DNA of 30,322 bases, from positions 1-30,322 of the IMG/VR virus record IMGVR_UViG_3300034093_001001, one strand, 5' to 3'. Origin of the DNA: a virus. A program made the position numbers and the translations under genes. The number at the start of each line of letters is the position of its first letter. The stretch's first letter is position 1. Positions 2-13,909 of this stretch are shown here, piece by piece. Under the pieces are notes generated by a model. The model saw only the letters and a list, made by a program, of their open reading frames with translations, ran no database searches and was not told where the DNA came from.

Positions 2-2716
2 TATATTGCAAATCAATATTTAAATCAAGCTAGTCAATTATATGTTACTAGAGTATTAGGATTATGTGGTTATGATGCTGGTCGTACATGGGGGTTAACT
101 GTTAAATGTGGTTATGATGCTACAACGGTAGGTCCAACAATTACAGCTGGTACATATAGTACATTATTTACATTTACAGCTGATTCTCAAAACACTATTA
201 CTAATTTTATTTCTAATGATTCTTTATTACAGACATTATGGAATAATAATTTAATCAATAATCAATTTAATAATCTTCCAGGTTCATTATCAGCCGCAAC
301 CGATAGTAATTATACTGGTGGTTCACTAAATCAAATATTTGCTAATGTATATCCTTTAGGTTCATCATTCACTGGTTTAAGTGTTACTAATTATTATTTG
401 AATAGTTATGTTTATGATTCAGTTAATGATATATATTTTGGAACTACAAGTGGTGTAACTACTTATTATTCAGCATCAACATATGACTCTGTGCGTGACC
501 AAATAGTTGTTTTATTAAAAAGTAGAGCTGCTTATGATGGTGATGAAAATTTAACTTTTAGAGTTGGTGGTGTTTCTACATCACTTTCTTTTGATACAAC
601 AGTTTCAGCCGCTACTAACAATATTTACGGTAATTTTAAATTAGATTGGACTGATTCAAATGGTAATTCAAATTCATTATTACTTAATCTTGATAGGACT
701 AGTCCTAATTATATTGGTACTATTTTAGATAAAAATAATACTCAGATACCTATTCCTCCAATTTATGTCGATGAAATTTATGATAATAATATAAGGAATT
801 TATATAATGCTGGTCAAATAAGTGGTTTAAATTTATCATTAGTAGATTATTCAGATAAATTTTCTAATTATAAAGATAAATTTAAACCTTCAGTAACACC
901 ATGGGTGGTGTCTCAGATAAAAGGTTCTAATATTAGTAAACTATTCAGATTTTGGTCTGTAGGTGATGGTGATTATTCTTCAAATTTATTTAAGGTTACT
1001 ATATCTAATATTATGTTACCTGATAGTACAAATACATTATATGATGTTAACTTTCCTGATTTATATAATGATTACAAATTTGATGTAACTATTAGATATA
1101 TAGATAATCTAGATGGTGGTTTTCAAGGGATTCCTGATGAAGTATTTACAATGTGTTCTATGAATCCAAAATCTGCTAATTATATTGGTAAGATGATAGG
1201 TACTAGAAACGGTGATTATGTATCAAGGTCAAAATATGTATTAGTTGAAATTAATGAAGATGACGAGACTACATTAAGAAGTTTCCCAGCTGGGTTTTTA
1301 GGTTATCCACTTATTAATTATGAAGATACTCAAAGTGGTGTAGCTACGGTTCCTCAACAATTTTATAAAAAACAATACGAAGTTACTGATAACGTTAACG
1401 TAACTTATTTAGGTTTAAGTGACGCATTCGGATATGATAAAAGTCTATTCAAATATAATGGTATACCTAATGACGCTGCAATCCTAGAATGGTCTGGTAT
1501 GACTAAAGGATATCATATGGATATAAATGCGACTGGTTCAACAGTTGATGATGTAGATTACACAGCACATAATTATGAGTTTGAGGTAGGTAATTCAATT
1601 TTTACTGATGTAATATCGTCAATTGCTACTCCATATGAATTTTTGAATTCTCGTAAATTTACATTAATGCCTTATGGTGGTTTTGATGGATGGGATATGC
1701 ATAGACAAGGTAGAACTAATTCAAACTATTTTAAAATAACTGGTAGAAATGGTATTTTAGGTGAAATAAAAGATAATTTTAATAAAATTTCATTAACTAA
1801 TAAATCAACTGGTTTAAATTCTGATTACTATGCGTTTTTAGAAGGTGTATGGACATTTAAAAATACTGACTACATTGACATCAATTTATTTGCAACACCA
1901 GGTTTAGATGTGATTAACCATAACGATTTAATTGAAGAAACAATTGATTTAATTGAATACATAAGAGCCGATTCTTTATATATAATTACAACACCAGATG
2001 TTAATGCATCTGAAGATAAATTGTTGGTTGAAGATATCGTTGACTTTACTGATGGAATATATAACTCATCATATGTCGCAACATATTGGCCATGGGTTCA
2101 AGTAAATGACTCTACTCCATGGTTACCACCAACTGGAGTTGTAATTGCTAGTATTGCTAGAAATGATAAGGCTCCAGGTGGTCAGTTGTGGTTTGCTGCT
2201 GCTGGTGTAAATAGAGGTGCTATTAGTGTTTATGATATAAGAAGAAATGAGATTGGTGACCTATTAAGTAAACCAGAAGTAGATTATTTATATAATAATA
2301 GAATAAACCCATTAATATATGTTAATTTACAAGACTATGAAGGTTATAAGATATGGGGTAATAAAACATTATTAATCGATAATAAATTAACTAATAGAAT
2401 ACATGTTAGACGTTTATTATTAGAAGCTAGATATGTTATCAGACAAGTTTGTAAAAAATATTTGTTTGAACAAAATGATATGAAAACTCAGAGAGCACTT
2501 GAAAATGCTATTAATCCATTATTAGCTAATATAAAAGATGGTCGTGGTATATCACAATTTAAATTACAATTTGATAGAGACCCAAATAAAATAGATAGTG
2601 GTCAACTTGATGGTAAAATATTTATAAAACCAGTTAATACTATTGAATATATGGTATTTACGTTTTCGATAATACCTAGAGATGAAGATTTAGCAATAGT
2701 ATTTAATCAAGAATAA
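2..2716 (+). CDS. Contractile tail sheath protein (gp18-like), 5' partial
   Basis: The reading frame is open from the left edge to the stop at 2714-2716, giving at least 904 residues, so the start lies outside the window. A TTG at 398 is in frame but is not a credible start because the frame continues upstream without a stop and encodes sheath-like sequence, for example SQLYVTRVLG near the left edge. The C-terminal third carries the conserved sheath signature: an R-N-E-I-G-D-L-L segment, then NPLIYVNLQDYEGYKIWGNKTL, VRRLLLEARYVIRQ and a closing NTIEYMVFTFSI strand. Sheath subunits polymerise around the tube and contract to drive it through the host envelope. The partial protein is already much longer than T4 gp18 (659 aa), implying large extra surface domains in its N-terminal and middle parts. 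Family assignment is from visible motifs; the extra domains are not identified. Confidence 0.9.
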   Translation, partial: YIANQYLNQASQLYVTRVLGLCGYDAGRTWGLTVKCGYDATTVGPTITAGTYSTLFTFTADSQNTITNFISNDSLLQTLWNNNLINNQFNNLPGSLSAATDSNYTGGSLNQIFANVYPLGSSFTGLSVTNYYLNSYVYDSVNDIYFGTTSGVTTYYSASTYDSVRDQIVVLLKSRAAYDGDENLTFRVGGVSTSLSFDTTVSAATNNIYGNFKLDWTDSNGNSNSLLLNLDRTSPNYIGTILDKNNTQIPIPPIYVDEIYDNNIRNLYNAGQISGLNLSLVDYSDKFSNYKDKFKPSVTPWVVSQIKGSNISKLFRFWSVGDGDYSSNLFKVTISNIMLPDSTNTLYDVNFPDLYNDYKFDVTIRYIDNLDGGFQGIPDEVFTMCSMNPKSANYIGKMIGTRNGDYVSRSKYVLVEINEDDETTLRSFPAGFLGYPLINYEDTQSGVATVPQQFYKKQYEVTDNVNVTYLGLSDAFGYDKSLFKYNGIPNDAAILEWSGMTKGYHMDINATGSTVDDVDYTAHNYEFEVGNSIFTDVISSIATPYEFLNSRKFTLMPYGGFDGWDMHRQGRTNSNYFKITGRNGILGEIKDNFNKISLTNKSTGLNSDYYAFLEGVWTFKNTDYIDINLFATPGLDVINHNDLIEETIDLIEYIRADSLYIITTPDVNASEDKLLVEDIVDFTDGIYNSSYVATYWPWVQVNDSTPWLPPTGVVIASIARNDKAPGGQLWFAAAGVNRGAISVYDIRRNEIGDLLSKPEVDYLYNNRINPLIYVNLQDYEGYKIWGNKTLLIDNKLTNRIHVRRLLLEARYVIRQVCKKYLFEQNDMKTQRALENAINPLLANIKDGRGISQFKLQFDRDPNKIDSGQLDGKIFIKPVNTIEYMVFTFSIIPRDEDLAIVFNQE

Positions 2717-2720
2717 AAAA

Positions 2721-2740
2721 ACCCCCTATTTCTAGGGGGT
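2721..2740. terminator. Bidirectional intrinsic terminator between sheath gene and RNA-repair operon
   Basis: Perfect 8-bp inverted repeat ACCCCCTA / TAGGGGGT around a TTTC loop, flanked by an A run on the left (2714-2721) and TATATTT on the right. It sits between convergent stop codons (2716 on plus, 2746 on minus), so it can end transcription from both sides. Confidence 0.9.
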
Positions 2741-2745
2741 TATAT

Positions 2746-3594
2746 TTAAAAATTACCTTCTTGTACTTGTAGACATTTTAAACCCATGTCTCGCCACATA
2801 TCAACCACTTGGTTCCTATCGTCAAGTACGTACTCAATAAAGTATTTATTCTTAATGTGATTATCAAATAATTCTTTTTTAACAATAGAATCTTTTCTGA
2901 AATCACTTTCAGCTCTCATTAGTAATGAATCGTATTTTATATTATTATCTTCTAACCATTTAATAGTTATATCTCTACAAGAACCATCACGACCTGACAT
3001 TACAATAGTAACACCTAAGTTATCGTAAGAATTTACAATACCTTTAATAATATCATCACATTCATCTTCACCTACTCTTTGCCAGTCAAATGGTGAGCGG
3101 TCTTTCATATGTGCTAATGTACCATCGATATCAACAATAATCGCATTAGGTAATGATTTATCTTGTAAGATTGGTTCCGTTTTTTTAAGGTGTTGTTCGT
3201 ATAACTTAACAATAACATCTTTACCAACTGAATCTAATCGTTTTAAATCGTTTTTAATACATGTTTCTAATGGAATACCTAAAAACATATCTTGAATAAC
3301 TACTTCAGCTTTACCTTTAACTAATTCTTTAATCCTATTAACAGAATTTTCAGATAAGTGAGTATTATCCAATATGACATGTTTACCTTCCTCTAGAGCT
3401 AACAATACTAATACATCAACAGCTTTTTTAATAAACTTTTCCATATCACTAGAGTATTGAGTGTTATCAAACATTTTTCTCAAATCATCATTATTAATTC
3501 GTTTGTAACTATTTGGATTCATATCTATTAATCCTTTAGCCCATGTAGATTTACCTGAACCTGGTAAACCTCTAGTCAATATTACTTTTTTCAT
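2746..3594 (-). CDS. pseT: Polynucleotide 5'-kinase / 3'-phosphatase (T4 Pnk-like)
   Basis: 282 aa (T4 Pnk is 301). The N-terminal kinase domain has the P-loop GLPGSGKST at residues 9-17 and the INNDDLRKM segment near 33-41 that matches the T4 active-site D-D-x-R region. The C-terminal phosphatase is a HAD-type domain: VDIDGTLA with the nucleophile and acid Asp155/Asp157, VMSGRD at 198-203 and VLDDRNQVVDMW from 256, which aligns closely with the T4 C-terminus. In T4 the enzyme removes 3'-phosphate or 2',3'-cyclic phosphate and phosphorylates 5'-OH ends of cleaved tRNA so that RNA ligase can reseal it. It is the last gene of a minus-strand operon whose first gene is an Rnl1-type ligase; one base separates it from the upstream gene, so translation is probably coupled. 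All key residues appear intact. Confidence 0.95.
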   Translation of the reverse strand: MKKVILTRGLPGSGKSTWAKGLIDMNPNSYKRINNDDLRKMFDNTQYSSDMEKFIKKAVDVLVLLALEEGKHVILDNTHLSENSVNRIKELVKGKAEVVIQDMFLGIPLETCIKNDLKRLDSVGKDVIVKLYEQHLKKTEPILQDKSLPNAIIVDIDGTLAHMKDRSPFDWQRVGEDECDDIIKGIVNSYDNLGVTIVMSGRDGSCRDITIKWLEDNNIKYDSLLMRAESDFRKDSIVKKELFDNHIKNKYFIEYVLDDRNQVVDMWRDMGLKCLQVQEGNF

Positions 3595-3595
3595 C

Positions 3596-4270
3596 TTAAT
3601 CGTATTTAAATTCTAAAATATTATTTGCTTCCATTATTTTTCTCTCCAGAGAACTTTTTGGTTCAAATATTAATTCTTTAGGGAACATTGTAAGTTCCTT
3701 ATTATTCTTCATGTTATTACATCTAGTTCTTAAATCAACACACTTAGTCATTAATTCAGCTGAACCTAAAATAACATATTTACTTAAATCTTCTAACTTA
3801 GGTAATTCATTATCCATTAGCTTCTCAGCACAGTATATACTTCTAGCCGCATGAAAATGTTTATTCTTACCACTGTTATATCGATTTAAATCCCTTTTAG
3901 CGAATCCTAAGAACGCTTTTATTACATTATACGTTCTACAGTGATTAAGTTTCTCAGAAGGGCTTAAATAATCAAAATCTGTAAACATAATTATATCAGC
4001 ATTAATAGTTGATTCACCAGAGAATAGATTCCTATAAAACCTTTCTTTAGTAGTAAACATATATTGACGTTCACCATCTGCACTATCATATTGGAATTGA
4101 TGCCAATTAGGATAATACTTATCTGATTTAAGAAAAGGTGTTATAATGTATAGTACATCAAAATCTGAATCCTCAGTATGTGTATTATACATTCTGGAAC
4201 CAATAACATATGATTCTTTGATATATAAGCTAATCTCACTTAACTCATCTTCATTTATTTTTATATTCAT
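3596..4270 (-). CDS. RlaP-like predicted nucleotidyltransferase (DNA polymerase beta superfamily)
   Basis: 224 aa. Near the N-terminus it has GSRMYNTHTEDSDFDVLYI: the helix-turn GS (residues 24-25) followed by D-F-D acids at 36 and 38, the metal-binding signature of the polymerase-beta nucleotidyltransferase superfamily. The ADIIMFTDFD segment near 91-100 could supply the third acid. The spacing fits the COG3541/PF10127 group (RlaP), which is described as associated with RNA ligases in RNA-repair operons. Its start overlaps the stop of the HNH gene by 4 nt and it is followed after 1 nt by the kinase/phosphatase. I infer a role in preparing damaged RNA ends, such as nucleotide addition; substrate and activity cannot be read from sequence. 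A minimal antitoxin-like nucleotidyltransferase is less likely given length and context. Confidence 0.75.
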   Translation of the reverse strand: MNIKINEDELSEISLYIKESYVIGSRMYNTHTEDSDFDVLYIITPFLKSDKYYPNWHQFQYDSADGERQYMFTTKERFYRNLFSGESTINADIIMFTDFDYLSPSEKLNHCRTYNVIKAFLGFAKRDLNRYNSGKNKHFHAARSIYCAEKLMDNELPKLEDLSKYVILGSAELMTKCVDLRTRCNNMKNNKELTMFPKELIFEPKSSLERKIMEANNILEFKYD

Positions 4271-4719
4271 TTTATATATTCTTTAAGGTAATCAGTATTT
4301 AATTTCCATTCAAAATTACTTCTTTTTGACCATATATCAAAAGATTTGTTAATATAGTTGAGTGCTTCATCTTCAGTAATGTCATTAACTTTCATTAATT
4401 GATTAACTACTATATGTAATTCACCATTCATTTGTGCTAAACCAACATGTTTACTCTTATGACAATAAGGACATAATGAAATTAAACCTAAAAGTGTTTG
4501 CTCTTTAGTTTCATCGTTATAATCCCATATTTCATGACATTCAACATTATGCCTAACACCTTGGTTAGTCCCTACATCACCACATATCTCACATACATGA
4601 TTAGCATGTTCATATGATTTCTTACGAATCACATCCCATTCATTTTTTGTTACATTAGACCTAACGTTACTATACCAACATGTTCTAGGTACTAATTCAA
4701 TTGTTAATTTATAATTCAT
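4267..4719 (-). CDS. HNH-type zinc protein in the RNA-repair operon
   Basis: 150 aa. The centre holds an HNH/treble-clef zinc site: CEIC at residues 43-46, VECHEIW with His62, and CPYCHKSKH at 83-91. The N-terminal ELVPRTCWYSNVRSNV and the C-terminal part up to FEWKLNTDYL recall a widespread family of bacterial and phage HNH-annotated proteins of this size. It overlaps both neighbours by 4 nt (stop at 4267 with the RlaP-like start; start at 4719 with the ligase stop), so it is translationally coupled to RNA-repair enzymes and is likely a genuine operon member instead of a late homing insertion. HNH proteins are usually nucleases; whether this one cuts DNA, trims RNA or only binds nucleic acid is unknown. 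Confidence 0.7.
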   Translation of the reverse strand: MNYKLTIELVPRTCWYSNVRSNVTKNEWDVIRKKSYEHANHVCEICGDVGTNQGVRHNVECHEIWDYNDETKEQTLLGLISLCPYCHKSKHVGLAQMNGELHIVVNQLMKVNDITEDEALNYINKSFDIWSKRSNFEWKLNTDYLKEYIK

Positions 4720-5825
4720 GACTCTTTAGTATTACTAAAAGGCTTACTGAATACTGGTCTAATTATTTTCCAAATAAATTCAGAGTAATTTTTACCAGTA
4801 TTCATGTTAAATAATATCGATGGGTACTTGTATAGTTTTGCGTGAGCTGCAAATACTTTTTTATCATCGGTATTATATTCACCTTTTATTTTATTGTATA
4901 TAACTTTATATTCATTCTCAATTATTACATATTGAGTTTCTAATGTGTTTATAGTATCCTTAACCCAATCATAGAATTCATCTGGAACTTTTTCCAATAT
5001 TTCATCAAATGATTTCTCTTCCATAAGATGTTCCCATATTGCAATATTAGATACTCCAGTAATTATTCTATGTAGTCTGATATAATCTTCAAACTTAATT
5101 TTCATTCTAAAATTTGAAGGATGGAATCTAAATATAAACCCTTCACTATTATTAGTGTTTAGACTTTTAAGTTCTTTAGGTAAATCAGGTCCAAAAGTAA
5201 AATATTGTTTACATTTAACTATATCTTTAGTTTTAATTCCAGAATACTTAAAATAACTTGTAGCTCTAGTAAAATGTAATTCATCATAATCATCATGAGT
5301 ATAACATCTGTTTGGTACAGCTGTAATAAACTTAACTGTAGATAAATCACCATAGTCAACTACAATTCTATTTTGTGGATAAATAACCTCGCCAATATAA
5401 GCAATAGATTTTTCAAATGCTTCTAACTTATATTTGGAGTTTAGTATACTCATACCTTCAATAGCTTGTTCAGACATAAATGAACCTCTAGTTGCAGTTA
5501 CCCATTCATTAGTTGGTAGGTAATAGAATAATATCAGCATTGAACCATCTAATTTATCTTGAACATATACATACTCATCTTTCCATGGAATAAGATTATT
5601 AGCGTCATAAACTACTTCCTCATAGTTAAAGAATTTAGTCATTGGTTTTACAATGATATTTCCTTTATCATCAGTTATAAGCCCTCTACACATTAAAGTT
5701 ATTTCATCCCATAATTTTTCATATTGAACTTTTTCAGTATAGTTCCATATAACTAATGGTAATGTAGGATGAACTTGTTTATACAACAACCCATCTTCAT
5801 AGTATTTATTTAATATTTTTTCCAT
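4716..5825 (-). CDS. rnlA: RNA ligase (T4 Rnl1-like)
   Basis: 369 aa, close to T4 Rnl1 (374). The nucleotidyltransferase motifs are visible in order: CRGLITDDKG upstream with KPMTKFFNYEE at 60-70; motif I KLDGS with the adenylated Lys91; ATRGS at 111-115; YIGEVIYPQNRIVV with Glu146; motif IV SEGFIFRF with Glu228; and motif V MKIKFEDYIRLH with Lys242/Lys244. The enzyme joins 5'-phosphate to 3'-OH RNA ends with ATP; in T4 it works with Pnk to restore tRNA cut by the PrrC anticodon nuclease. First gene of the four-gene minus-strand operon, transcribed away from the tail tube gene, with a Bacteroidota-type promoter immediately upstream (5846-5876). All catalytic residues look intact. Confidence 0.94.
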   Translation of the reverse strand: MEKILNKYYEDGLLYKQVHPTLPLVIWNYTEKVQYEKLWDEITLMCRGLITDDKGNIIVKPMTKFFNYEEVVYDANNLIPWKDEYVYVQDKLDGSMLILFYYLPTNEWVTATRGSFMSEQAIEGMSILNSKYKLEAFEKSIAYIGEVIYPQNRIVVDYGDLSTVKFITAVPNRCYTHDDYDELHFTRATSYFKYSGIKTKDIVKCKQYFTFGPDLPKELKSLNTNNSEGFIFRFHPSNFRMKIKFEDYIRLHRIITGVSNIAIWEHLMEEKSFDEILEKVPDEFYDWVKDTINTLETQYVIIENEYKVIYNKIKGEYNTDDKKVFAAHAKLYKYPSILFNMNTGKNYSEFIWKIIRPVFSKPFSNTKES

Positions 5826-5845
5826 AGTTATACACTTTTTTTATG

Positions 5846-5876
5846 CAAAGATATATAAAATAAAATAAAAAACAAA
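5846..5876 (-). promoter_or_regulatory. Bacteroidota-type promoter of the RNA-repair operon
   Basis: Read on the minus strand: TTTG (5876-5873), 19 nt, then TATCTTTG (5853-5846). This matches the -33/-7 pattern TTTG-N19-21-TAnnTTTG. The expected transcription start is near 5841, about 15 nt before the ligase start codon. Confidence 0.75.
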
Positions 5877-5902
5877 AAAAATAGATTATTTTATTTATTA
5901 AC

Positions 5903-5917
5903 ATATTTATTATTAAA
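5903..5917 (+). promoter_or_regulatory. Candidate phage late promoter motif before the tail tube gene
   Basis: ATATTTATTATTAAA, 48 nt before the tube start codon. Near-identical motifs precede five other plus-strand genes in this window (see finding). The TATTTAT core is the reverse complement of the main part of the T4 late TATAAATA box, so homology with T4 late promoters is uncertain. Confidence 0.5.
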
Positions 5918-5965
5918 CTGAATATAATAAAATTAATAATAATTACAGTAAAAAAAAAGTAGAAT

Positions 5966-6454
5966 ATGAGTGATTTATTAATGAAGATGCCTAACCCCTA
6001 TGAACCAAAAAGGAAAAATAGATGGTTATTAAGATTTCCAGCGGCATTAGGGATTCAAGAGTGGTGGTTATCTTCCGCTTCAAGACCTTCAATTACACAA
6101 AATGAAGTGGAGATTCCATTTTTAAATACATCGACTTGGGTTATCGGTAGATTTACATGGGAAGCAATTTCCGTTACATTTAGAGACCCTATTGGTCCTT
6201 CTGCGTCTCAAGCAATTATGGAGTGGGTTCGTTTACAATCAGAATCTATTACTGGTCGTCAAGGTTACGCAGCTGGTTACAAGAAAGATGTTTATTTAGA
6301 GATGTTAGACCCAACTGGTGTAGTTATCGAAAAATGGAAATTAGAAGGAACTATGTTAACTAACGTTAACTTTGGAGATTTAGCATTTGACGATGATGCA
6401 ATTGCAGATATCACTGCTGATATGCGTTTTGACAGAGCAATCTTATTGTTCTGA
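5966..6454 (+). CDS. Tail tube protein (gp19-like)
   Basis: 162 aa, the same size as T4 gp19 (163 aa). The sequence has the usual tube-protein profile: an N-terminal NRWLLRFPAALGIQEWWLSSASRPSI stretch (Arg-rich start leading to a strand that ends in S-R-P), then EIPFLNTSTWVIGRFTWEAISVTFRDP, and a C-terminal KLEGTMLTNVNFGDLAFDDDAIADI ending with a basic-aromatic strand. Subunits stack as hexameric rings inside the sheath. The ATG is preceded by an A-rich leader typical of Bacteroidota phages, not a strong Shine-Dalgarno. In T4 the tube gene directly follows the sheath gene; here the RNA-repair operon is inserted between them on the other strand. A strong terminator follows at 6482. Confidence 0.9.
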   Translation: MSDLLMKMPNPYEPKRKNRWLLRFPAALGIQEWWLSSASRPSITQNEVEIPFLNTSTWVIGRFTWEAISVTFRDPIGPSASQAIMEWVRLQSESITGRQGYAAGYKKDVYLEMLDPTGVVIEKWKLEGTMLTNVNFGDLAFDDDAIADITADMRFDRAILLF

Positions 6455-6481
6455 TATTCATATCAAAAACATTATAAATCT

Positions 6482-6522
6482 AGCTTTACTTTAATATCAC
6501 TTATTAGAGTAAGGCTTTTTTT
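6482..6522 (+). terminator. Intrinsic terminator after tail tube gene
   Basis: 15-bp stem (6482-6496 with 6502-6516, including two G-U pairs), loop TCACT, followed by a run of seven T (6516-6522). This should isolate the abundant tube transcript from the endonuclease gene that follows. Confidence 0.9.
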
Positions 6523-6540
6523 GTATTAACATTTTGAGCT

Positions 6541-6975
6541 ATGATAAGAAAAGTACCAAAAAAATTAACTAAGAAGAAGTATAAACCTAAGAAACGATTT
6601 AAACGTAAAAAGTTCGATGCTACAGCTAAGAATAAATTAGAGTCTAGGTTTGAAGAATTTTTAAAAGAATTAGGTTTAGTTGAACATGTTGATTATGAAT
6701 TTCAACATAAAGTAAGTTCAGCTTATTATGATTTCTTAATTAAGAAGAGTCGTATACTAATAGAGGTGGATGGTGATTTTCATCATTGTAATCCGAATAC
6801 AATACATAAGGACCCTAAGTATCCAATGCAAGTTAAGAATGTTAAAAATGATATTAGAAAGAATGGTATAGCATCTGATAATGGTTATAAATTATTAAGG
6901 TTCTGGGAGATGGACATTAATGAAAATACTGAAACAGTAAAAGAAACATTAAAAAGAGAACTTTTACTATTATAA
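6541..6975 (+). CDS. Vsr/DUF559-like endonuclease, probable free-standing homing enzyme
   Basis: 144 aa. The first 25 residues are almost all Lys/Arg, a likely DNA-binding tail. Then a PD-(D/E)XK fold of the very-short-patch-repair/DUF559 type: ESRFEEFLKELG (Glu34), SSAYYDF with Asp64, ILIEVDGDFHH with Glu75/Asp77 and His81, and the typical closing KLLRFWEMDI at 117-126. Phage proteins of this build are often mobile endonucleases inserted between structural genes, and this one sits alone after the tube terminator with no partner gene. Role in homing, host DNA degradation or repair cannot be decided from sequence. Its start has no clear upstream promoter; readthrough from the tube gene may supply expression. 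Confidence 0.75.
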   Translation: MIRKVPKKLTKKKYKPKKRFKRKKFDATAKNKLESRFEEFLKELGLVEHVDYEFQHKVSSAYYDFLIKKSRILIEVDGDFHHCNPNTIHKDPKYPMQVKNVKNDIRKNGIASDNGYKLLRFWEMDINENTETVKETLKRELLLL

Positions 6976-6978
6976 AAG

Positions 6979-6993
6979 ATATTTATTAATAAA
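6979..6993 (+). promoter_or_regulatory. Candidate phage late promoter motif before 7001 gene
   Basis: ATATTTATTAATAAA, 7 nt before the start codon of the 252-aa gene; a member of the recurrent motif set. Confidence 0.45.
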
Positions 6994-7000
6994 AAATATT

Positions 7001-7759
7001 ATGAGAAGAATTGATAAAAAATTAAATATGATGAAAGCTAATCTATTGGCTGAATCAAGATATTTGGAATCTAAAGGATTAATTAAAGAAGAGGAATATT
7101 TAAGAGGAGACTTACATACTTTAATTGGTACTGAAATGAGAGCAGAAAAAATAGCAGATAATAGTAATGGTGCAGAACATCATGTTGCAGCGTATGAAGC
7201 AGCAGCAAAAGCTACTAAGGAATTTCTTAGACAACATCCAGAAATGAGGGATGCCGCAGAAGAAATTGAAGCGCATTTTTCAAAAAAATTATATGGATTA
7301 GATGAAAATAGATTATCTTCACTATTTGGTGGATTTAAAAAAGAAAGTGTATACCCTTATATAGGACAATTAAAAGAACTTTTATTACCAAGTAGACCAT
7401 TAACTATTGAAATGGCAGAAAAAGCACCAAATTCAATAAATAAATTTAACCAAATAGTTGATGCAATCAAAGCTGATAAAGGTATTGTTAAGAAAATGGG
7501 AAAAAAAGGTATTAGTTTAAAGACTACTTTAGGTACTGACCAATACGGTATAAATAGAGCATCTAATAATTATAACTCAGATATGAATGATTTATATTTA
7601 GGTAATGTAGGTGGGTTAAATACTAAAGCACTTTCTTTCTGGATTAAAAACATTGATGATGCTGAAGTTGCTAATACTATCGGTAAACAATTATCTGGCT
7701 GGGTTAATGATAATATAAACCACGTTATAGAGGTCCTGACATCACTAACTAAAGATTAA
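7001..7759 (+). CDS. Unknown phage protein, 252 aa
   Basis: I do not recognise this protein. The N-terminus MRRIDKKLNMMKANLLAESRYLESKG is basic and amphipathic and contains L-L-A-E near residue 17, which fits the L/I-x-E cleavage pattern of T4-type prohead proteases; this is inference only. The middle is helical and charged (for example EAAAKATKEFLRQHPEMRDAAEEIEAHF), and the C-terminal half has Gly/Asn-rich turns such as GTDQYGINRASNNYNSDMNDLYLGNVGG. No transmembrane segment or enzyme motif is visible. It has its own candidate late promoter 7 nt upstream and a strong terminator downstream, so it is a single-gene unit among tail genes. It may be a virion component; an internal head protein or tail assembly factor are both possible. 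Confidence 0.7.
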   Translation: MRRIDKKLNMMKANLLAESRYLESKGLIKEEEYLRGDLHTLIGTEMRAEKIADNSNGAEHHVAAYEAAAKATKEFLRQHPEMRDAAEEIEAHFSKKLYGLDENRLSSLFGGFKKESVYPYIGQLKELLLPSRPLTIEMAEKAPNSINKFNQIVDAIKADKGIVKKMGKKGISLKTTLGTDQYGINRASNNYNSDMNDLYLGNVGGLNTKALSFWIKNIDDAEVANTIGKQLSGWVNDNINHVIEVLTSLTKD

Positions 7760-7780
7760 ATAAAATAAAGATTTTAGATT

Positions 7781-7809
7781 AAAACCACTTTAACGAGTGG
7801 TTTTTTTTT
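7781..7809 (+). terminator. Intrinsic terminator after 252-aa gene
   Basis: 9-bp perfect stem AAAACCACT / AGTGGTTTT with loop TTAACG, followed by nine T. Confidence 0.9.
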
Positions 7810-7852
7810 ATTTATATAATTCCAGGTATTTACAAAAAAAGTTTAGTATCTT

Positions 7853-7866
7853 ATATTTATAATTAA
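7853..7866 (+). promoter_or_regulatory. Candidate phage late promoter motif before PF12322 baseplate gene
   Basis: ATATTTATAATTAA, 25 nt before the start codon at 7892; a member of the recurrent motif set. It is not a TAnnTTTG element because the final G is missing. Confidence 0.45.
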
Positions 7867-7891
7867 CTAATAAAAATAAAGTTTTTAGAAT

Positions 7892-8983
7892 ATGACTGAT
7901 AAAAGACCAAATGTGTTTCAAACACAGAATGACGTTAAAAAAACTGCTGATGAATCAGCTTATTTCAGGCCAATCAATGTTGACCCAAATTTAGAATTTG
8001 AAGAGCAAGAGAAGCTTAGGACTGAAGAACAAAAGAGAATGCGTGAAGAAGCGGTAAGGATTACTCAAGAAATGGCTAATGAAGGAGAGGTATTGCGTAA
8101 AGCAATGACTGAAAATACTCCACCATCTCAACCAGTATACCAATCAACTACACCGCCAGTGATTCCTCCAGTTGTACCACCATCAAATGATGATGATAAC
8201 GATGATGAGGCAAAAGAAAAGAGAGCTAGATATATCGAAGTTTTAAGTCAGCCTCAAATGAATCAACCATATGATTTAATTCCATTACCATCAGAAGGTA
8301 AATTATATCCTAACAAAAAGAAAAGTGTTAAGATAGCTTATTTAACTACAGCTGATGAAAATATTCTTACGTCACCTAACTTAGTTGAAAGTGGTGATTT
8401 CTTAGAGATATTAATTAACCGAAAATTATTAGAACCAACATTAAGATATAAGGATTTAATACCTGGTGATAGAAATGCTATCATGATTTGGTTAAGAGCA
8501 ACTGGTTATGGTGAAATGTATCCAATTACAATTTATGATAATAATGGGGTTCCATTTGATACTGAGATTAACTTAAGTAGTTTAAAAACTATTAATTTAA
8601 CTGTTGACCCTGAAGAAGATGGTTTATATACTTTTGTATTACCAGTTTCTAAAAATAGAGTTAGATTTAGAATATTAACTATCGGTGAGATGGAAGAATT
8701 AGAGGCTGAAGCTGAAAGTAGAAGAGATGATTTTTTAAATTCTGAAAATACTATGATTCTAGAAGCTCAGATAGTAGCTATTAATGATAATAAAGATAGA
8801 GCATTTATTAGTGATTATGTTGAGAACATGAGAGTATTAGATGCTAAAAAATTAAGAGAGTATATGAATAATGTTAGTTGTGGTATCGATATGAATATAT
8901 CAGTTACTTCACCTAATGGCGAAATCGTAAACACGCTCCTTCCCCTTACAACGAAGTTTTTTTGGCCTGACTTCGAAATATAA
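7892..8983 (+). CDS. T4-type baseplate protein (gp26/PF12322-like), zero-frame product
   Basis: 363 aa. The first ~110 residues are charged and low-complexity with a Pro-rich linker (STTPPVIPPVVPPS) and an acidic patch. The conserved domain follows: YDLIPLPSEGKLYPNKKKSVKIAYLTTADENILTSPNLV, a pattern typical of the T4 base plate family PF12322, then DLIPGDRNAIMIWLRATGYGEMY and a C-terminal P-L-T-x-x-F-F-W-P strand just before the stop. Proteins of this kind act in assembly of the baseplate hub. The gene precedes a second reading frame that continues from the T-run at 8957-8963 (see next entry), an arrangement like tail assembly chaperone pairs upstream of tape measure genes. The N-terminal extension makes it longer than T4 gp26 (208 aa). 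Confidence is good for the family, lower for the exact function. Confidence 0.8.
   Translation: MTDKRPNVFQTQNDVKKTADESAYFRPINVDPNLEFEEQEKLRTEEQKRMREEAVRITQEMANEGEVLRKAMTENTPPSQPVYQSTTPPVIPPVVPPSNDDDNDDEAKEKRARYIEVLSQPQMNQPYDLIPLPSEGKLYPNKKKSVKIAYLTTADENILTSPNLVESGDFLEILINRKLLEPTLRYKDLIPGDRNAIMIWLRATGYGEMYPITIYDNNGVPFDTEINLSSLKTINLTVDPEEDGLYTFVLPVSKNRVRFRILTIGEMEELEAEAESRRDDFLNSENTMILEAQIVAINDNKDRAFISDYVENMRVLDAKKLREYMNNVSCGIDMNISVTSPNGEIVNTLLPLTTKFFWPDFEI
8957..8964 (+). promoter_or_regulatory. Candidate +1 ribosomal frameshift site
   Basis: Seven T followed by G, read as AAG TTT TTT TGG in the zero frame. Sliding both Phe tRNAs by +1 keeps perfect TTT pairing and puts GGC next in the downstream frame. 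The zero frame stops 18 nt after the TGG codon. A homopolymer sequencing error of one T would give the same picture. Confidence 0.5.
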
Positions 8984-9239
8984 AGAATTCTTATTAGAAG
9001 AAATTTATATTTGCATGAAACATATTGGTATGAGTTATCAAGATGTTTTATTTTGTCCTACATACGAAAGAAGATTCTATCTACAAATGCTGATTAATGA
9101 AGCAAATAGAAAGAATGAGATAGCAGAAGAAGCACAACAAGCTAGGAGTAGTAGTGGGGGTAGGGGGAGTAGAAATACTAGAATTAGTGGAGACCAACTG
9201 AAGGCTAAATTACAATCTGGAGAAATCCCTAATGTTTAA
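8964..9239 (+). CDS. Frameshift extension of the baseplate protein (or short separate ORF from 9015)
   Basis: This frame is +1 relative to the 7892 gene and is open from 8931 to the stop at 9237-9239. An ATG at 9015 would give 74 aa, but the conserved-looking sequence begins before it: after a +1 shift on the T7 run the product reads GLTSKYKEFLLEEIYICMKH, then IGMSYQDVLFCPTYERRFYL. That second half resembles the short phage element (helix, G-x-S-x-x-x-V-L-x-L-P, x-x-R-R-F-Y-L) found at the C-terminus of, or just after, PF12322-like proteins in T4-related phages and contractile injection systems. The ATG at 9015 has no clear ribosome binding site. I therefore favour a programmed frameshift fusion (C-terminal ~92 residues) over an independent gene. 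A Gly/Ser-rich linker (SSSGGRGSR) precedes the end. Confidence 0.65.
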   Translation, partial: GLTSKYKEFLLEEIYICMKHIGMSYQDVLFCPTYERRFYLQMLINEANRKNEIAEEAQQARSSSGGRGSRNTRISGDQLKAKLQSGEIPNV

Positions 9240-9251
9240 TTAGGGATTTTT
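9223..9251 (+). terminator. Intrinsic terminator overlapping the stop codon
   Basis: Perfect 11-bp stem AAATCCCTAAT / ATTAGGGATTT with a GTTTA loop, followed by TTTTT. The left arm lies inside the last codons and the stop TAA (9237-9239) spans the loop and the base of the right arm. Confidence 0.88.
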
Positions 9252-9262
9252 CTATTTAATGG

Positions 9263-9278
9263 ATATTTATATATTAAA
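9263..9278 (+). promoter_or_regulatory. Candidate phage late promoter motif before 643-aa gene
   Basis: ATATTTATATATTAAA directly after the preceding terminator and 12 nt before the start codon at 9291; a member of the recurrent motif set. Because a strong terminator precedes it, a promoter is needed here. Confidence 0.5.
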
Positions 9279-9290
9279 CATTACAATCAT

Positions 9291-11222
9291 ATGAAAATAA
9301 GATTAACTGAATCGCAATACGATAAACTATTAAAGGTAGTTAACTCAAATAAGAAATTAATAATTACTGAAACTCAGTACAAAAGACTTTTATTAGAGTT
9401 TGCTGGTCAATTTACTACTATTGAAGAGGGTAATGGGATTAAAATAATATCAAATGGTAAAGAATTTACATTTAAAGTATTTGGTGAATTAAACGGTGAG
9501 TTATTAGTTAGAAATCTAAATGATGGTAGATACAAGTCTCAATATTTTTTATTTAATAAAAATGGGCTAAAGAATAAAACATTACGTGCTGAAAAATCAG
9601 GTGTAATAAAAGCTGATTATAATGATATCACTACATTAACTTCAAAAGAACAGAATGCTAACTGGAAACAATTCATATTTCAAAATGTAACAAGTTTCCA
9701 AGTTTTTAGTGATGAAACATTTAAATTAGTTATTGACCCTAAAATAGATACTAAAACTGGTAAAGTATTAAGTAATCCAGAAGATAAAGCACCAGAAGAA
9801 ATTAAACAAATAGATTTTAAAGATGCGTTAGTTAGAGGTATTGAATCTAATCACATGTATCAATTAACCTTTTATGATAATTCAACAGTTAAATTTAAAG
9901 TATCTGAAAAAGAAGGTAGTGTAATAACTATTGAATTTGAAACTGTGAGTGAAAGAAGTTTTATTGACTCAAATACTTTTGATAAAAATACAGAAGAATA
10001 TAAAAAGTTTGAAGTACTACAAAGCCAACTTAAAAATGCAAGTACGGAAGAAGAAAAAACTGAAATAGAACAAGAAATATCTATTTTAGTTAAAGATAGG
10101 GAAGACTACGATAAAAAAGATGAAAATAAATCAGAATTAAAAACTATTAAAAAAACAGTTTACAATGGTGGTGTAGCTACTAAATGGGTTGGAGGACTTG
10201 AGGATTCAGTGGAATATAAAGACGCTAAAGAATTAAAAATTGATTTAAGTAAAGTAGTTAAACACCCTAATAAAATTAAAGTAGCTAATAAAGACCAAGA
10301 AGCTAAAATAAATAAGTTAAATCAAGAATTAGCTATGGCTAGTACTGATGAAGAAAAAAAGAAAATACAAGACGAAATTAAGGATATTGACCGAGAACTT
10401 ACTTTACATTTTTTAAATCCAGATTTTGATGTATATAATAAAGTGTCCGATGGTATAGATACATTTGATTTAACATTAATGTTAAATTACAGACCAGAAT
10501 CAGTTTCTAAGAAAACTAAAAATGGTATGGAGTGGTCTCAGAATTACGATAGTAAGATGTATTCTAAGAATTTTCCATTATACGGTCTTAAAAATTTGAC
10601 TATAATAAAAGATAAAGTATTACCATCATTAACTGATAAACGTGAAGTGAACAAGGGTGATAAACTAGATTTATCACGTAAAGAAATGGAGTTTAAAAAA
10701 ATAAAAGATTATATATATAGTTCTAACGCTTCTTCAGAGTTATTACGTAGGCCTAAAGGACTTATGAGGTTATTAAATACTGATAAAGGTGTAATACCTT
10801 TAGAAACTTTACAAGCTGAATTAGGTAATAACCTTAAGACTAAAGATAAAAGAGATAAATTTATTGCTGGTAATTATGTAGCTTTTAAAGCTGATTTTGA
10901 AAGTGTTAGTAAGGTTGATGATGCTGCTCAATTAGAAACGTTTAAAAGATTAATTACAGCATATGGGAATAAATTCCCTAAAGCAGTAGTTAAAAAATAT
11001 ACTGTAGGTGATAATCATGTATCTTTAATTATGAAAGATGAAGAATCTGGCATAATGTATAGTTTATTTATACAAAATGCTGATGAGGATGGTGAAGAAA
11101 AATTAGCGGAAGATACATACAACATTCAGTTAAAATTTAATAATAATAGTAAACAAGCAAAAAAATCTATAGCTAAATTTAAAATTGAAGTTAAAGATTA
11201 TCACGCAACTAAACTTAGTTAA
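9291..11222 (+). CDS. Unknown tail-region protein, 643 aa, with duplicated helical segments
   Basis: I do not recognise a family. The N-terminus holds two copies of a short motif: IRLTESQYDKLLK (residues 3-15) and IITETQYKRLLLE (24-36). Residues 40-230 look beta-rich with alternating hydrophobic and polar residues. Two similar charged helical segments lie exactly 100 residues apart: LQSQLKNASTEEEKTEIEQE from residue 243 and LNQELAMASTDEEKKKIQDE from residue 343, both followed by further charged helix. The remainder is Lys/Asp-rich and soluble, with no membrane segment. It lies 3 nt upstream of the tape measure start, so the two are cotranscribed and perhaps coupled; a tape-measure chaperone, tail tip or baseplate accessory role is plausible but unproven. 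Confidence 0.75.
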   Translation: MKIRLTESQYDKLLKVVNSNKKLIITETQYKRLLLEFAGQFTTIEEGNGIKIISNGKEFTFKVFGELNGELLVRNLNDGRYKSQYFLFNKNGLKNKTLRAEKSGVIKADYNDITTLTSKEQNANWKQFIFQNVTSFQVFSDETFKLVIDPKIDTKTGKVLSNPEDKAPEEIKQIDFKDALVRGIESNHMYQLTFYDNSTVKFKVSEKEGSVITIEFETVSERSFIDSNTFDKNTEEYKKFEVLQSQLKNASTEEEKTEIEQEISILVKDREDYDKKDENKSELKTIKKTVYNGGVATKWVGGLEDSVEYKDAKELKIDLSKVVKHPNKIKVANKDQEAKINKLNQELAMASTDEEKKKIQDEIKDIDRELTLHFLNPDFDVYNKVSDGIDTFDLTLMLNYRPESVSKKTKNGMEWSQNYDSKMYSKNFPLYGLKNLTIIKDKVLPSLTDKREVNKGDKLDLSRKEMEFKKIKDYIYSSNASSELLRRPKGLMRLLNTDKGVIPLETLQAELGNNLKTKDKRDKFIAGNYVAFKADFESVSKVDDAAQLETFKRLITAYGNKFPKAVVKKYTVGDNHVSLIMKDEESGIMYSLFIQNADEDGEEKLAEDTYNIQLKFNNNSKQAKKSIAKFKIEVKDYHATKLS

Positions 11223-11224
11223 TT

Positions 11225-13909
11225 ATGAGCTTATCAAGTGATGAATTTAAAGATGCTAAAAAAGCATTAGACGAGTTAAAGCAATCGATGGCCCAAGGCC
11301 TTAAGATTCAAAAAGATATGGAGAAAGGTGTTGGCAATTATGCTAAAGCCTTAGTAAATATTGCTGAACAACAAAAAAATATCAATTATCTTGAAAGTCA
11401 ATTAGCTGAAACTGTAAATAGAGTTAGTCTTTTAAAGAAAGAAATTGCCGACAAAGAAGAAGCTAATAGGGATAAAATTGAACGTTGGCAAAAATTATAC
11501 GAGAGTGGTTCTGAAAGAACTAAAGCTATTGCTGCAAAACATTTACAAATATTAGTTGCTCAAACTAATGAACTTAAAGGTCAATTAGATATTGAGGAAA
11601 AAAGAGTTGCTGTTTCTGGAAATTATTTAAAGTCACAAAAAGAAAATTTAGAATTAACCAAACAACAAGCTAAAGAAGCTAGTTTATTATTAGCTACTTG
11701 GAAATCATTAGGTAAGTTACCAGGTCTTGGTAAGAAGTGGGGATTTGATAAAATGAAGTCTTGGGGTATTTTCGAGATGGATAAAGAAATCCGAAACTCT
11801 GCAAGAAGTATGAACGTTGGCGCTAAAAGCTTTGAAGGTTTTAGTAAAAATATTGGTAAAGCTGCTGATACTACTGTAGCATGGGGTGTTAACGCTAAAG
11901 AGTTAGCTAAAATGCAAGGTGGCTATAGTGAAGCTATTGGTAGGTCAGTTGAATTAACTCAAGAAGGTCATAAAGCAATGGCTCTTATGGCTGAAGGTAC
12001 TGGTTTAGGTACTGAGTTTGCAGTTCAAATGGCTTCTGAAATGGATAAGTTTGGTGCTAGTGTTTCTACATCTAAGGATTTAGTTGCTGCAACTATTAAA
12101 CAAGCTAGTAAAGTTGGTGTTAATGGTGCCGCTGCATCTAAGAAATTAGTATCTTTATTAAAGCTCTCACAGACTTATGTATTTAAGGGTGGACAAGAAG
12201 GTCTTAAAAAGATGGCGAGTGACGCAGAACGTCTTAAATTAGATTTAGAAGGTGCTGCTGGTATGGCTGAAAAAGTAATGCGACCAGAAGGTGCTGTTGA
12301 AACTGCTGCATTGTTAACTACAATGGGTGGTGAGTTTGCTAAATTAGGTGACCCATTCCAATTAATGTTTAAAGCAAGGAATGATTTTGCTGGATTTGCA
12401 AAAGATTTAGGTAAGGCATCATCTGAATTTGTTGAATTTAATGACCAGACTGGTTCATTTGATATTAAAGGTGGTTTAGCTAGAGATAGGATGTTAGAGA
12501 TATCTAAGATTACTGGTATTCAAATGGATAAACTTCAGGAAATGGCAGTTGCTGAGAAGAAATTACAAATGATTCAAGGTAATACACCAGCTGGTATCAC
12601 AAGTGAAGAAGATAAAGAATTGATTGCTAGTTTAACTGAAGTAGGTAAAGGTGGTAAGTTAATGATTAAATTAAGAGGTCAAGACCCACTTAATATTGAC
12701 CAATTAACACCTAAGATGTTAGAACAATATAAATTAGACCAAAATACATTAGAAGAATCAGCTAAACAAGCTAGAACATTCGATGAGGTAGTTGAAGATT
12801 TAATTACATCACTTAAACAAACCTTATTACCATTTGTTCAATCATTAAAAGAAAATTTAGGTAAACCATTACAAGATTTAATGGCTAAATGGGATAAGAA
12901 TGGTTTCTACGATAAATTAAAATCATTTGCTAAAACTGCTGGTGAAATTGCATCAGCAATAGGTAATTTTATTCTTGCACATCCATTCGCAGCGTTATTA
13001 GCATGGAAAGGATTAGAAGCACTTACATGGATTAAAAATGGTTTAGCCTTAGGTAAAGGATTTAATATGGTTGCTCGTGCTGGTGGTGGTATGGGTGGTG
13101 GTATGGGCGGTGGTATGGCGGCTGGTTATGGTCAAGCTGGTGGTATGATAGGTCCAGCATTACCTCCAGGTGCGGTCCCTCCTATGGGTAGGATGCAAAG
13201 AATGATGGGTGGTAATGTTATGGGTGGTAAATTTGCCATGGGTAGTATGGGTTCAATGGCAGCTGGTGCTGGTTTAGGTATAGCTGGAATGGGTTTAAAT
13301 GCTATGAGAGGTGATGAGAATGATGGTTTCTATAATAGTGGTGGTGGAAAAGCGTTAGGTATTGGTAGTTCAATAGCATCTGGTGCTGGTATGGGTATGA
13401 TGTTTGGACCATATGGTGCATTAATTGGTGGTTTATTAGGTGGTGCTTATGGTGCTTATAATGAATTTGGTAATAGTGATAGAAATAAAAACAATGCTCC
13501 TAAATCTACATATCTAGCAGATGACGCATTGATTAGTAATGATGGAAAAAATAATGGTGGACCTGGTTCTAGAATACAATTTAATCCACATGATAAATTT
13601 ATGTCTTTTGATGATGTAATGATTGCTGGTACAAATGCTGGTGCAAATGGTAAATTAGCTGATGAAATAAAGGGTAAAGGTAAGGATAAAGGTGGTCGTG
13701 GTAGTGACAAAAAAAATATTCAACATTCTGGTGAAATTAAAATTACTGGTTTACCATCTGGAAGTAAATTTGGTGAGTGGATTATTGATTTAGTTGTAAA
13801 TAATCCTAAATTTGCAACTGATTTGGCTCATAGTAACGCTAGTAGCAATAATGCAAATAAAAAAGGAGGTAAAACTCCTGGAAAAGGTAGTAGAGATTTA
13901 TTAACTTAA
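11225..13909 (+). CDS. Tail tape measure protein
   Basis: 894 aa. The first ~155 residues are long coiled-coil helix (KNINYLESQLAETVNRVSLL and following). The middle is an Ala/Lys-rich helical domain with segments such as AALLTTMGGEFAKLGDPFQL. A hydrophobic stretch near 575-600 (IASAIGNFILAHPFAALLAW) may insert in the host membrane. After ~620 the protein turns Gly/Met-rich (repeated GGGM units, then GSMGSMAAGAGLGIAGMGL) with a second glycine-zipper-like hydrophobic segment near 718-745. The C-terminus is Lys/Gly-rich. This architecture and the position after the PF12322 gene and before baseplate genes fit a tape measure, which sets tail length and is ejected during infection. At about 1.5 angstrom per residue it would specify a tail of roughly 130 nm. 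Starts 3 nt after the previous stop. Confidence 0.8.
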   Translation: MSLSSDEFKDAKKALDELKQSMAQGLKIQKDMEKGVGNYAKALVNIAEQQKNINYLESQLAETVNRVSLLKKEIADKEEANRDKIERWQKLYESGSERTKAIAAKHLQILVAQTNELKGQLDIEEKRVAVSGNYLKSQKENLELTKQQAKEASLLLATWKSLGKLPGLGKKWGFDKMKSWGIFEMDKEIRNSARSMNVGAKSFEGFSKNIGKAADTTVAWGVNAKELAKMQGGYSEAIGRSVELTQEGHKAMALMAEGTGLGTEFAVQMASEMDKFGASVSTSKDLVAATIKQASKVGVNGAAASKKLVSLLKLSQTYVFKGGQEGLKKMASDAERLKLDLEGAAGMAEKVMRPEGAVETAALLTTMGGEFAKLGDPFQLMFKARNDFAGFAKDLGKASSEFVEFNDQTGSFDIKGGLARDRMLEISKITGIQMDKLQEMAVAEKKLQMIQGNTPAGITSEEDKELIASLTEVGKGGKLMIKLRGQDPLNIDQLTPKMLEQYKLDQNTLEESAKQARTFDEVVEDLITSLKQTLLPFVQSLKENLGKPLQDLMAKWDKNGFYDKLKSFAKTAGEIASAIGNFILAHPFAALLAWKGLEALTWIKNGLALGKGFNMVARAGGGMGGGMGGGMAAGYGQAGGMIGPALPPGAVPPMGRMQRMMGGNVMGGKFAMGSMGSMAAGAGLGIAGMGLNAMRGDENDGFYNSGGGKALGIGSSIASGAGMGMMFGPYGALIGGLLGGAYGAYNEFGNSDRNKNNAPKSTYLADDALISNDGKNNGGPGSRIQFNPHDKFMSFDDVMIAGTNAGANGKLADEIKGKGKDKGGRGSDKKNIQHSGEIKITGLPSGSKFGEWIIDLVVNNPKFATDLAHSNASSNNANKKGGKTPGKGSRDLLT

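Follow-up and report, generated by a model that had tools for sequence, protein, structure and literature searches.

A probable RNA-repair operon with a three-gene core, carried between tail genes of a large phage

The IMG/VR virus record IMGVR_UViG_3300034093_001001, a sequence of 30,322 bp that serves whole as our window, is a piece of a larger genome, that of a large (giant- or jumbo-type) myovirus, probably of Bacteroidota. Between its tail sheath and tail tube genes, four genes lie on the minus strand and are transcribed in the order RNA ligase, HNH-family protein, nucleotidyltransferase (NTase) and kinase/phosphatase (Pnk) (Table 1). We propose, with a probability of about 0.72, that this is an operon for the healing, refilling and sealing of RNA that is carried as cargo at an insertion hotspot, with tRNA as the most likely substrate. 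In such a pathway, Pnk would remove the 3′ phosphate (or cyclic phosphate) and phosphorylate the 5′-OH left by a metal-independent RNase, the NTase, a compact relative of RlaP, would re-add nucleotides lost from the 3′ end through double-cutting or trimming nucleases, and the Rnl1-type ligase would seal the healed ends. The RNA most likely to be repaired would be a host or phage tRNA whose anticodon loop has been cut by a nuclease directed against phages (PrrC or RloC, for example), and the HNH gene would be an inserted DNA-nuclease passenger that stands outside the repair machine. We infer the enzymatic activities, the substrate and a role in counter-defence from protein families and gene linkage.

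The gene layout that an earlier note had read from the sequence alone is borne out by the coordinates of the open reading frames (ORFs) and by the junction sequences. The ligase and HNH genes overlap by 4 nt (ATGA), as do the HNH and NTase genes (ATGA), and a single nucleotide separates the NTase from Pnk (TAA-G-ATG), an arrangement that suggests translational coupling. Opposite the operon, the plus strand has no ORF of at least 60 amino acids (aa). Both flanking tail genes are on the plus strand, Pnk converging on the sheath gene and the ligase diverging from the tube gene; the junction of sheath, terminator and Pnk was seen independently in a second contig (L102; 99.8% identity over 2956 nt).

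The three core enzymes

The families that the earlier note had assigned to the ligase, the HNH protein and Pnk are matched by clear profile hits, and that of the NTase by a weaker one. The ligase matches PF09511 (1.9e-16; 61 bits against a cut-off of 28.3) and, over its full length (residues 14–364), phrog_562 (1e-55), and it has nucleotidyl-transfer motifs such as KxDG. Because it scores 50 bits against TIGR02308, whose equivalog cut-off is 242 bits, we regard it as a member of the Rnl1 family and not as an equivalog of T4 RnlA. Pnk combines an N-terminal P-loop kinase with a C-terminal HAD phosphatase, as in T4 Pnk, and matches PF25109 (2.9e-51), AAA_33 and, over its full length, phrog_505 (2.6e-90); its matches in the PDB include Pnkp1 (4xrp, 4.5e-46) and T4 Pnk (1ltq, 3e-36). 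Sequence searches of the PDB with the ligase and with the NTase returned no useful match at the single-sequence level.

Identity to the T4 proteins is 23% for the ligase and 34% for Pnk. When the T4 reference proteins (from NC_000866) were aligned with those of the window, T4 ligase residues R54, K75, K99, D101, G102, E159, E227, K240 and K242 corresponded to R47, K64, K91, D93, G94, E146, E228, K242 and K244, and all 12 T4 residues checked in Pnk were kept (K15, S16, D35, R38, R126, D165, D167, R176, S211, R213, D254 and K258). The compared residues, which we take to be catalytic, show the T4-type active sites of both enzymes to be intact. The likeness to the tRNA repair genes pseT and rnlA of phage T4 extends to these two families and their checked residues, but not to gene organization: as the earlier note had implied, the T4 genes are not joined in one operon. 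A distance of ~1.4 kb that holds four other genes separates them, and neither an NTase nor an HNH gene is joined to them. The operon also differs from the Pnkp1–Rnl–Hen1 complex in having neither Hen1 nor PNKP_ligase, both of which were found only beside a chromosomal homologue. Most deep branches of the ligase and Pnk trees lack resolution, and the only firm pairing of the window protein is with that of a related virus, L101.

Two further arrangements were seen around Rnl1 ligases. In a 345-kb phage (L116, 3880–5997), one such ligase is interrupted, directly after the catalytic KxDG, by an intein-like insert that includes a LAGLIDADG endonuclease (PF03161, 1.6e-27). A small P-loop kinase lies upstream of Rnl1 in L002, L003, L004, L005, L008, L009 and L010; a cREC domain protein (PF20274, 1.1e-23) comes immediately after these in L004, and L005 and L009 have similar ORFs.

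The NTase matches NTP_transf_2 (1.9e-4), and its Pol-beta signature, GS-x10-DxD, is invariant in 12 relatives. The name RlaP-like, which the earlier note had given it, holds in part. Against the RlaP family PF10127 the protein scores 13.9 bits (E = 0.043), under the Pfam cut-off of 23 bits, and we dropped membership by Pfam and claim relatedness alone. Comparison (hhalign) with an alignment of five full-length jumbo-phage RlaP proteins gave a probability of 96% and an E-value of 3e-9 over 106 core columns, with the active-site motif GS...SDxD conserved. At 224 aa, against 355–407 aa for full-length RlaP, the protein is missing the C-terminal half of RlaP, and we regard it as a compact relative of that family. 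One neighbouring NTase region in another virus, L121, reaches 25 bits against PF10127.

The likely role of the NTase is to refill nucleotides removed from cut RNA. It might instead rebuild the 3′-CCA tails of tRNA or make a nucleotide signal: the best solved folds for its confident AlphaFold2 model (pLDDT 84.5) are ANT(4')/KNTase (kanamycin/neomycin nucleotidyltransferases) and HalB (E ~1e-4, TM 0.34–0.40), a closeness of Pol-beta fold that speaks for such a role, and Cas12a3 immunity is known to cleave the CCA tails of tRNA (PMC12851939). We consider this unlikely, given the homology to RlaP and a repeated, tight linkage to ligase and Pnk that tail repair would not need.

Operon versions, the recurring core and the HNH gene

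Three related viruses carry three versions of the operon at the sheath-side position: ligase–Pnk in L101, ligase–NTase–Pnk in L001 and ligase–HNH–NTase–Pnk in the window. In L101 the ligase meets Pnk directly through an ATGA overlap; in L001 an ATGA overlap joins it to the NTase, and Pnk follows. Both operons adjoin a sheath gene and converge with it. Both contigs stop within the ligase (in L001 its C terminus is encoded by the first 104 bases), which places the tube side of the insertion outside them. The recurring core is three genes (ligase–NTase–Pnk), not four. The four-gene order that the earlier note had treated as a unit is not conserved in related phages, HNH being absent from these two nearest operons, whereas the three-gene core recurs in distant jumbo phages and on three Bacteroidota chromosomes. 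The versions that have or lack the NTase or HNH lend themselves directly to comparison.

When viral contigs were scanned with a profile, the NTase family came up on jumbo-phage contigs as long as 345 kb. The ligase lies 3 nt upstream of the NTase in L116, with Pnk 3.3 kb downstream, and is joined to it by an ATGA overlap in L122, where a phosphoesterase-like ORF and then a kinase follow. Tenacibaculum phage pT24 (also L123), a Bacteroidota phage, has all three core genes on one strand within 5.2 kb (Pnk and ligase at no more than 4.5 kb); it differs from the window in its order, Pnk–ligase–NTase with unrelated genes between, in an NTase that is 34% identical and in having no HNH gene. Pnk lies within ~1 kb of the NTase in L120 and L126, the NTase overlaps a Thg1 gene in L117, and a full RlaP and a kinase accompany it in L121. 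The L121 genes form a repair-like island (5549–11784) of a NADAR-like ORF (by eye), the NTase, a second NTase, the kinase, the full RlaP and a CCA-enzyme-like ORF (by eye).

Scanning bacterial genomes for the NTase yielded three, all of Bacteroidota: a Chitinophagales metagenome-assembled genome (L164) and two Taibaiella genomes (L165, L166). In 3/3 the NTase is preceded by the ligase and followed by Pnk, all on one strand, with an additional NTase between ligase and NTase in L165; the junctions in L164, a 4-nt overlap and a 1-nt gap, match those of the phage. These clusters differ from the phage operon in being chromosomal, in having no HNH gene and in their company. TROVE and WYL genes lie upstream in L164, and extra RlaP, Hen1, a second ligase and a second Pnk occur in Taibaiella; the large RNA-repair cluster of Taibaiella chishuiensis (L165, 2435–11159) holds two RlaP, Rnl1, two NTases, Pnk, Hen1, a PNKP-type ligase and the second Pnk. 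Such linkage is rare: of the genomes sampled (396 of Bacteroidota and 200 of the Taibaiella family), only those of Taibaiella matched the NTase strongly.

Altogether, a ligase lies within 6 kb of the NTase in L001, L116, L122, pT24, L164, L165 and L166. Because linkage to ligase and Pnk in unrelated replicons is hard to explain otherwise, we take the NTase to work in RNA repair, and the identical three-gene order in phage and Bacteroidota chromosomes indicates that it belongs to the repair pathway. The presence of the core in both settings strongly supports RNA repair, the role that the earlier note had proposed for the ligase, NTase and kinase/phosphatase and that is upheld by their recurrent linkage in independent jumbo phages and on three Bacteroidota chromosomes.

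Horizontal transfer of the operon, read from an operon identity of 64–88% against ~40% for the adjacent sheath, was not upheld: the distal sheath is 80% identical between L102 and L101, which is also compatible with vertical descent in which the proximal sheath diverged or was replaced. Two sheath genes are in tandem in L102 (241–6165) and L101, the operon-proximal one being ~41% identical between the window and L101 and the distal one 80%. In L001/L100, ~160 bp extra between NTase and Pnk (776–940) contain a stable hairpin (z = -3.6), and the Pnk P-loop is broken by TAACTT, with an in-frame stop (RGLP-stop-LGSGKST); possible explanations are gene disruption, an assembly error and a recoding or bypass element. 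At 1645–2782 of the same contigs, a NUMOD1 homing-type ORF (1740–2663) separates the intact Pnk end from a second, partial Pnk 3′ end that is closer to the window Pnk, as if the ORF had invaded Pnk bringing its own 3′ end.

The HNH protein matches phrog_5200 (7e-54), and its zinc and active-site residues (C43, C46, H62, E63, C83, C86, H87 and H91) are invariant in 11 relatives. Most likely this protein is a DNA nuclease carried as a passenger, perhaps of the homing type, because its relatives at 29 other viral loci, searched with hidden Markov models built for this analysis, never have a ligase or Pnk within 5 kb (0/29). In cultured phages the family lies close to DNA exonuclease or polymerase genes. 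That the four genes are a single system, in which HNH trims damaged RNA ends, for example, or attacks rival DNA, would accord with its 4-nt overlaps with both neighbours in one transcription unit, with its preserved active-site residues and with a reported fusion of HNH to Rnl2 (PMC7824862). We give this little credence and rejected a core repair role of HNH as the default reading: in L001 and L101 the remaining genes close up by the identical ATGA junction, no chromosomal or distant phage version includes HNH, and its 29 relatives are often near DNA replication genes rather than ligase or Pnk.

As a passenger, HNH could be a free-standing homing endonuclease that invaded the ligase–NTase junction and helps the operon to spread by cutting operons without it, a possibility that we rate somewhat short of even. 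It draws on the HNH-less alleles of L001 and L101, whose junctions are closed (intact between ligase and NTase in L001), on the ATGAAT direct repeats that bracket the gene in the window and on how often homing-type genes have hit the region (the NUMOD1 ORF in L001, DUF723-type ORFs at the sheath–tube site and a Vsr-like ORF after the tube). However, the neighbours of HNH relatives are in many cases stable (DNA polymerase, RNase H and exonuclease), which is atypical for a homing gene.

The cargo site and the likely substrate

Relatives of the tail tube protein are encoded in 468 viral loci, of which we fetched 80 close ones; 77 have both sheath and tube. The gap between the two genes is empty (74–170 bp) in 23/77 and holds cargo of up to 6.8 kb in 54/77. 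The cargo, often antisense genes of homing type, includes antisense DUF723/DUF4379 or Mom-like and Vsr-like ORFs (536–602 aa), CAP-domain proteins that are likewise antisense, and OmpA-like proteins in the sense direction. The junction, at window positions 2717–5965, is an insertion hotspot of this jumbo-phage lineage (L020–L099), a property overlooked in the earlier note. Given the 23 empty junctions and the 54 with other cargo, the repair operon is one cargo of the hotspot, and its antisense position reflects the site, not the function. More accessory or counter-defence genes of jumbo phages might be sought at this site.

The operon might also serve a purpose other than tRNA repair, for example the repair of rRNA or phage mRNA, or the ligase might have a role in tail assembly. 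T4 RnlA is annotated with a role in tail-fibre attachment, and the operon sits among tail genes. The site, however, is a hotspot for cargo in general, where many relatives have nothing and the rest have unrelated genes; transcription of the operon opposes that of the tail genes; and the chromosomal versions, which have no tail genes, lie beside the RNA-repair genes RlaP, Hen1 and TROVE. We regard such a purpose as quite improbable.

The idea that Rnl1, PNKP and RlaP counter tRNA-cutting immunity has been published before: the three occur in jumbo phages, and RlaP is predicted to refill the bases excised by RloC (PMC7824862). By removing the wobble nucleotide, RloC makes a lesion that T4-type repair is thought unable to reverse (PMC2610378). 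By analogy with those jumbo phages, counter-defence against tRNA or rRNA nucleases can reasonably be inferred here. The window has the same ligase, PNKP-HAD and Pol-beta NTase, the last predicted by the authors of that work to refill lost nucleotides; it differs in its compact 224-aa NTase, in a tight operon within a tail-gene hotspot and in the inserted HNH gene. It offers a compact natural set for an open prediction, namely that a phage NTase refills the nucleotide removed by RloC-type anticodon nucleases and lets Rnl1 and Pnk finish a repair that the T4 enzymes are thought unable to make. PADLOC defence models gave no meaningful match.

Several observations weigh against the repair of tRNA by a hotspot-borne operon. 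The window contains no tRNA genes and is a 30-kb fragment, and the operon is rare, none of its four genes being found at the sheath–tube junction in the 77 relatives. The structural matches of the modelled NTase include small-molecule adenylyltransferases and HalB, and because L101 has no NTase, refilling is not essential. In addition, jumbo relatives of the tail region (L105–L111) have, at another place, an Rnl1-type ligase that is different and divergent, in some cases with a P-loop kinase ~2 kb off (a match in 9/14 records searched, two of the nine having been fetched by their ligase), and so the operon set may be redundant or serve another RNA.

A bolder reading, which we hold as speculative and rather doubtful, is that the compact RlaP-like NTase family defines a ligase–NTase–Pnk cassette common to Bacteroidota phages and chromosomes. 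The cassette would have been assembled stepwise in jumbo phages (ligase–Pnk, then NTase, then HNH) and spread by homing-type nucleases via the tail-gene hotspot, and it would reverse the action of RloC-type, nucleotide-excising tRNases that are beyond plain T4-type repair.

Host, promoter and flanking features

The Bacteroidota host suggested in the earlier note agrees with the tube relatives, which belong to phages of Flavobacterium and Rhodothermus, with phage pT24 and with the homologues on chromosomes. The operon promoter that the note had listed fared less clearly. Its sequence, TTTG-N19-TATCTTTG, agrees with the Bacteroidota consensus, but the pattern is no rarer than expected by chance in the AT-rich window (4 found against 2.95 expected), and we set aside identification by consensus alone. 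An antisense TANNTTTG within 150 bp of the tube was present at 13/22 distinct antisense-cargo junctions, 5/17 sense-cargo junctions and 0/12 empty junctions, the empty gaps being shorter. The promoter of the window itself is putative and its use presumed. Most relatives have an equivalent terminator-like hairpin behind the sheath.

Table 1 Positions of the operon genes and flanking features in the window
Feature	Position	Strand	Basis
Tail sheath flank, 5′ end beyond contig	2–2716	+	PF17482 1.8e-8, phrog_23 5.9e-42
Bidirectional terminator-like hairpin, between converging Pnk and sheath	2720–2741	.	9-bp stem, T tract
Bifunctional 5′ kinase/3′ phosphatase, T4 Pnk architecture, 282 aa	2746–3594	-	PF25109, AAA_33, phrog_505
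Pol-beta nucleotidyltransferase, compact RlaP-related family, 224 aa	3596–4270	-	NTP_transf_2
HNH-family protein, 150 aa, accessory, probably DNA endonuclease passenger	4267–4719	-	phrog_5200
Rnl1-type (T4 RnlA-like) ATP-dependent RNA ligase, 369 aa	4716–5825	-	PF09511, phrog_562
Putative Bacteroidota-type operon promoter	5846–5876	-	TTTG-N19-TATCTTTG sequence match
Tail tube flank	5966–6454	+	phrog_4542 1.1e-25

Directly after the tail tube, positions 6541–6975 hold a Vsr/DUF559-like endonuclease ORF, probably another homing-type gene.

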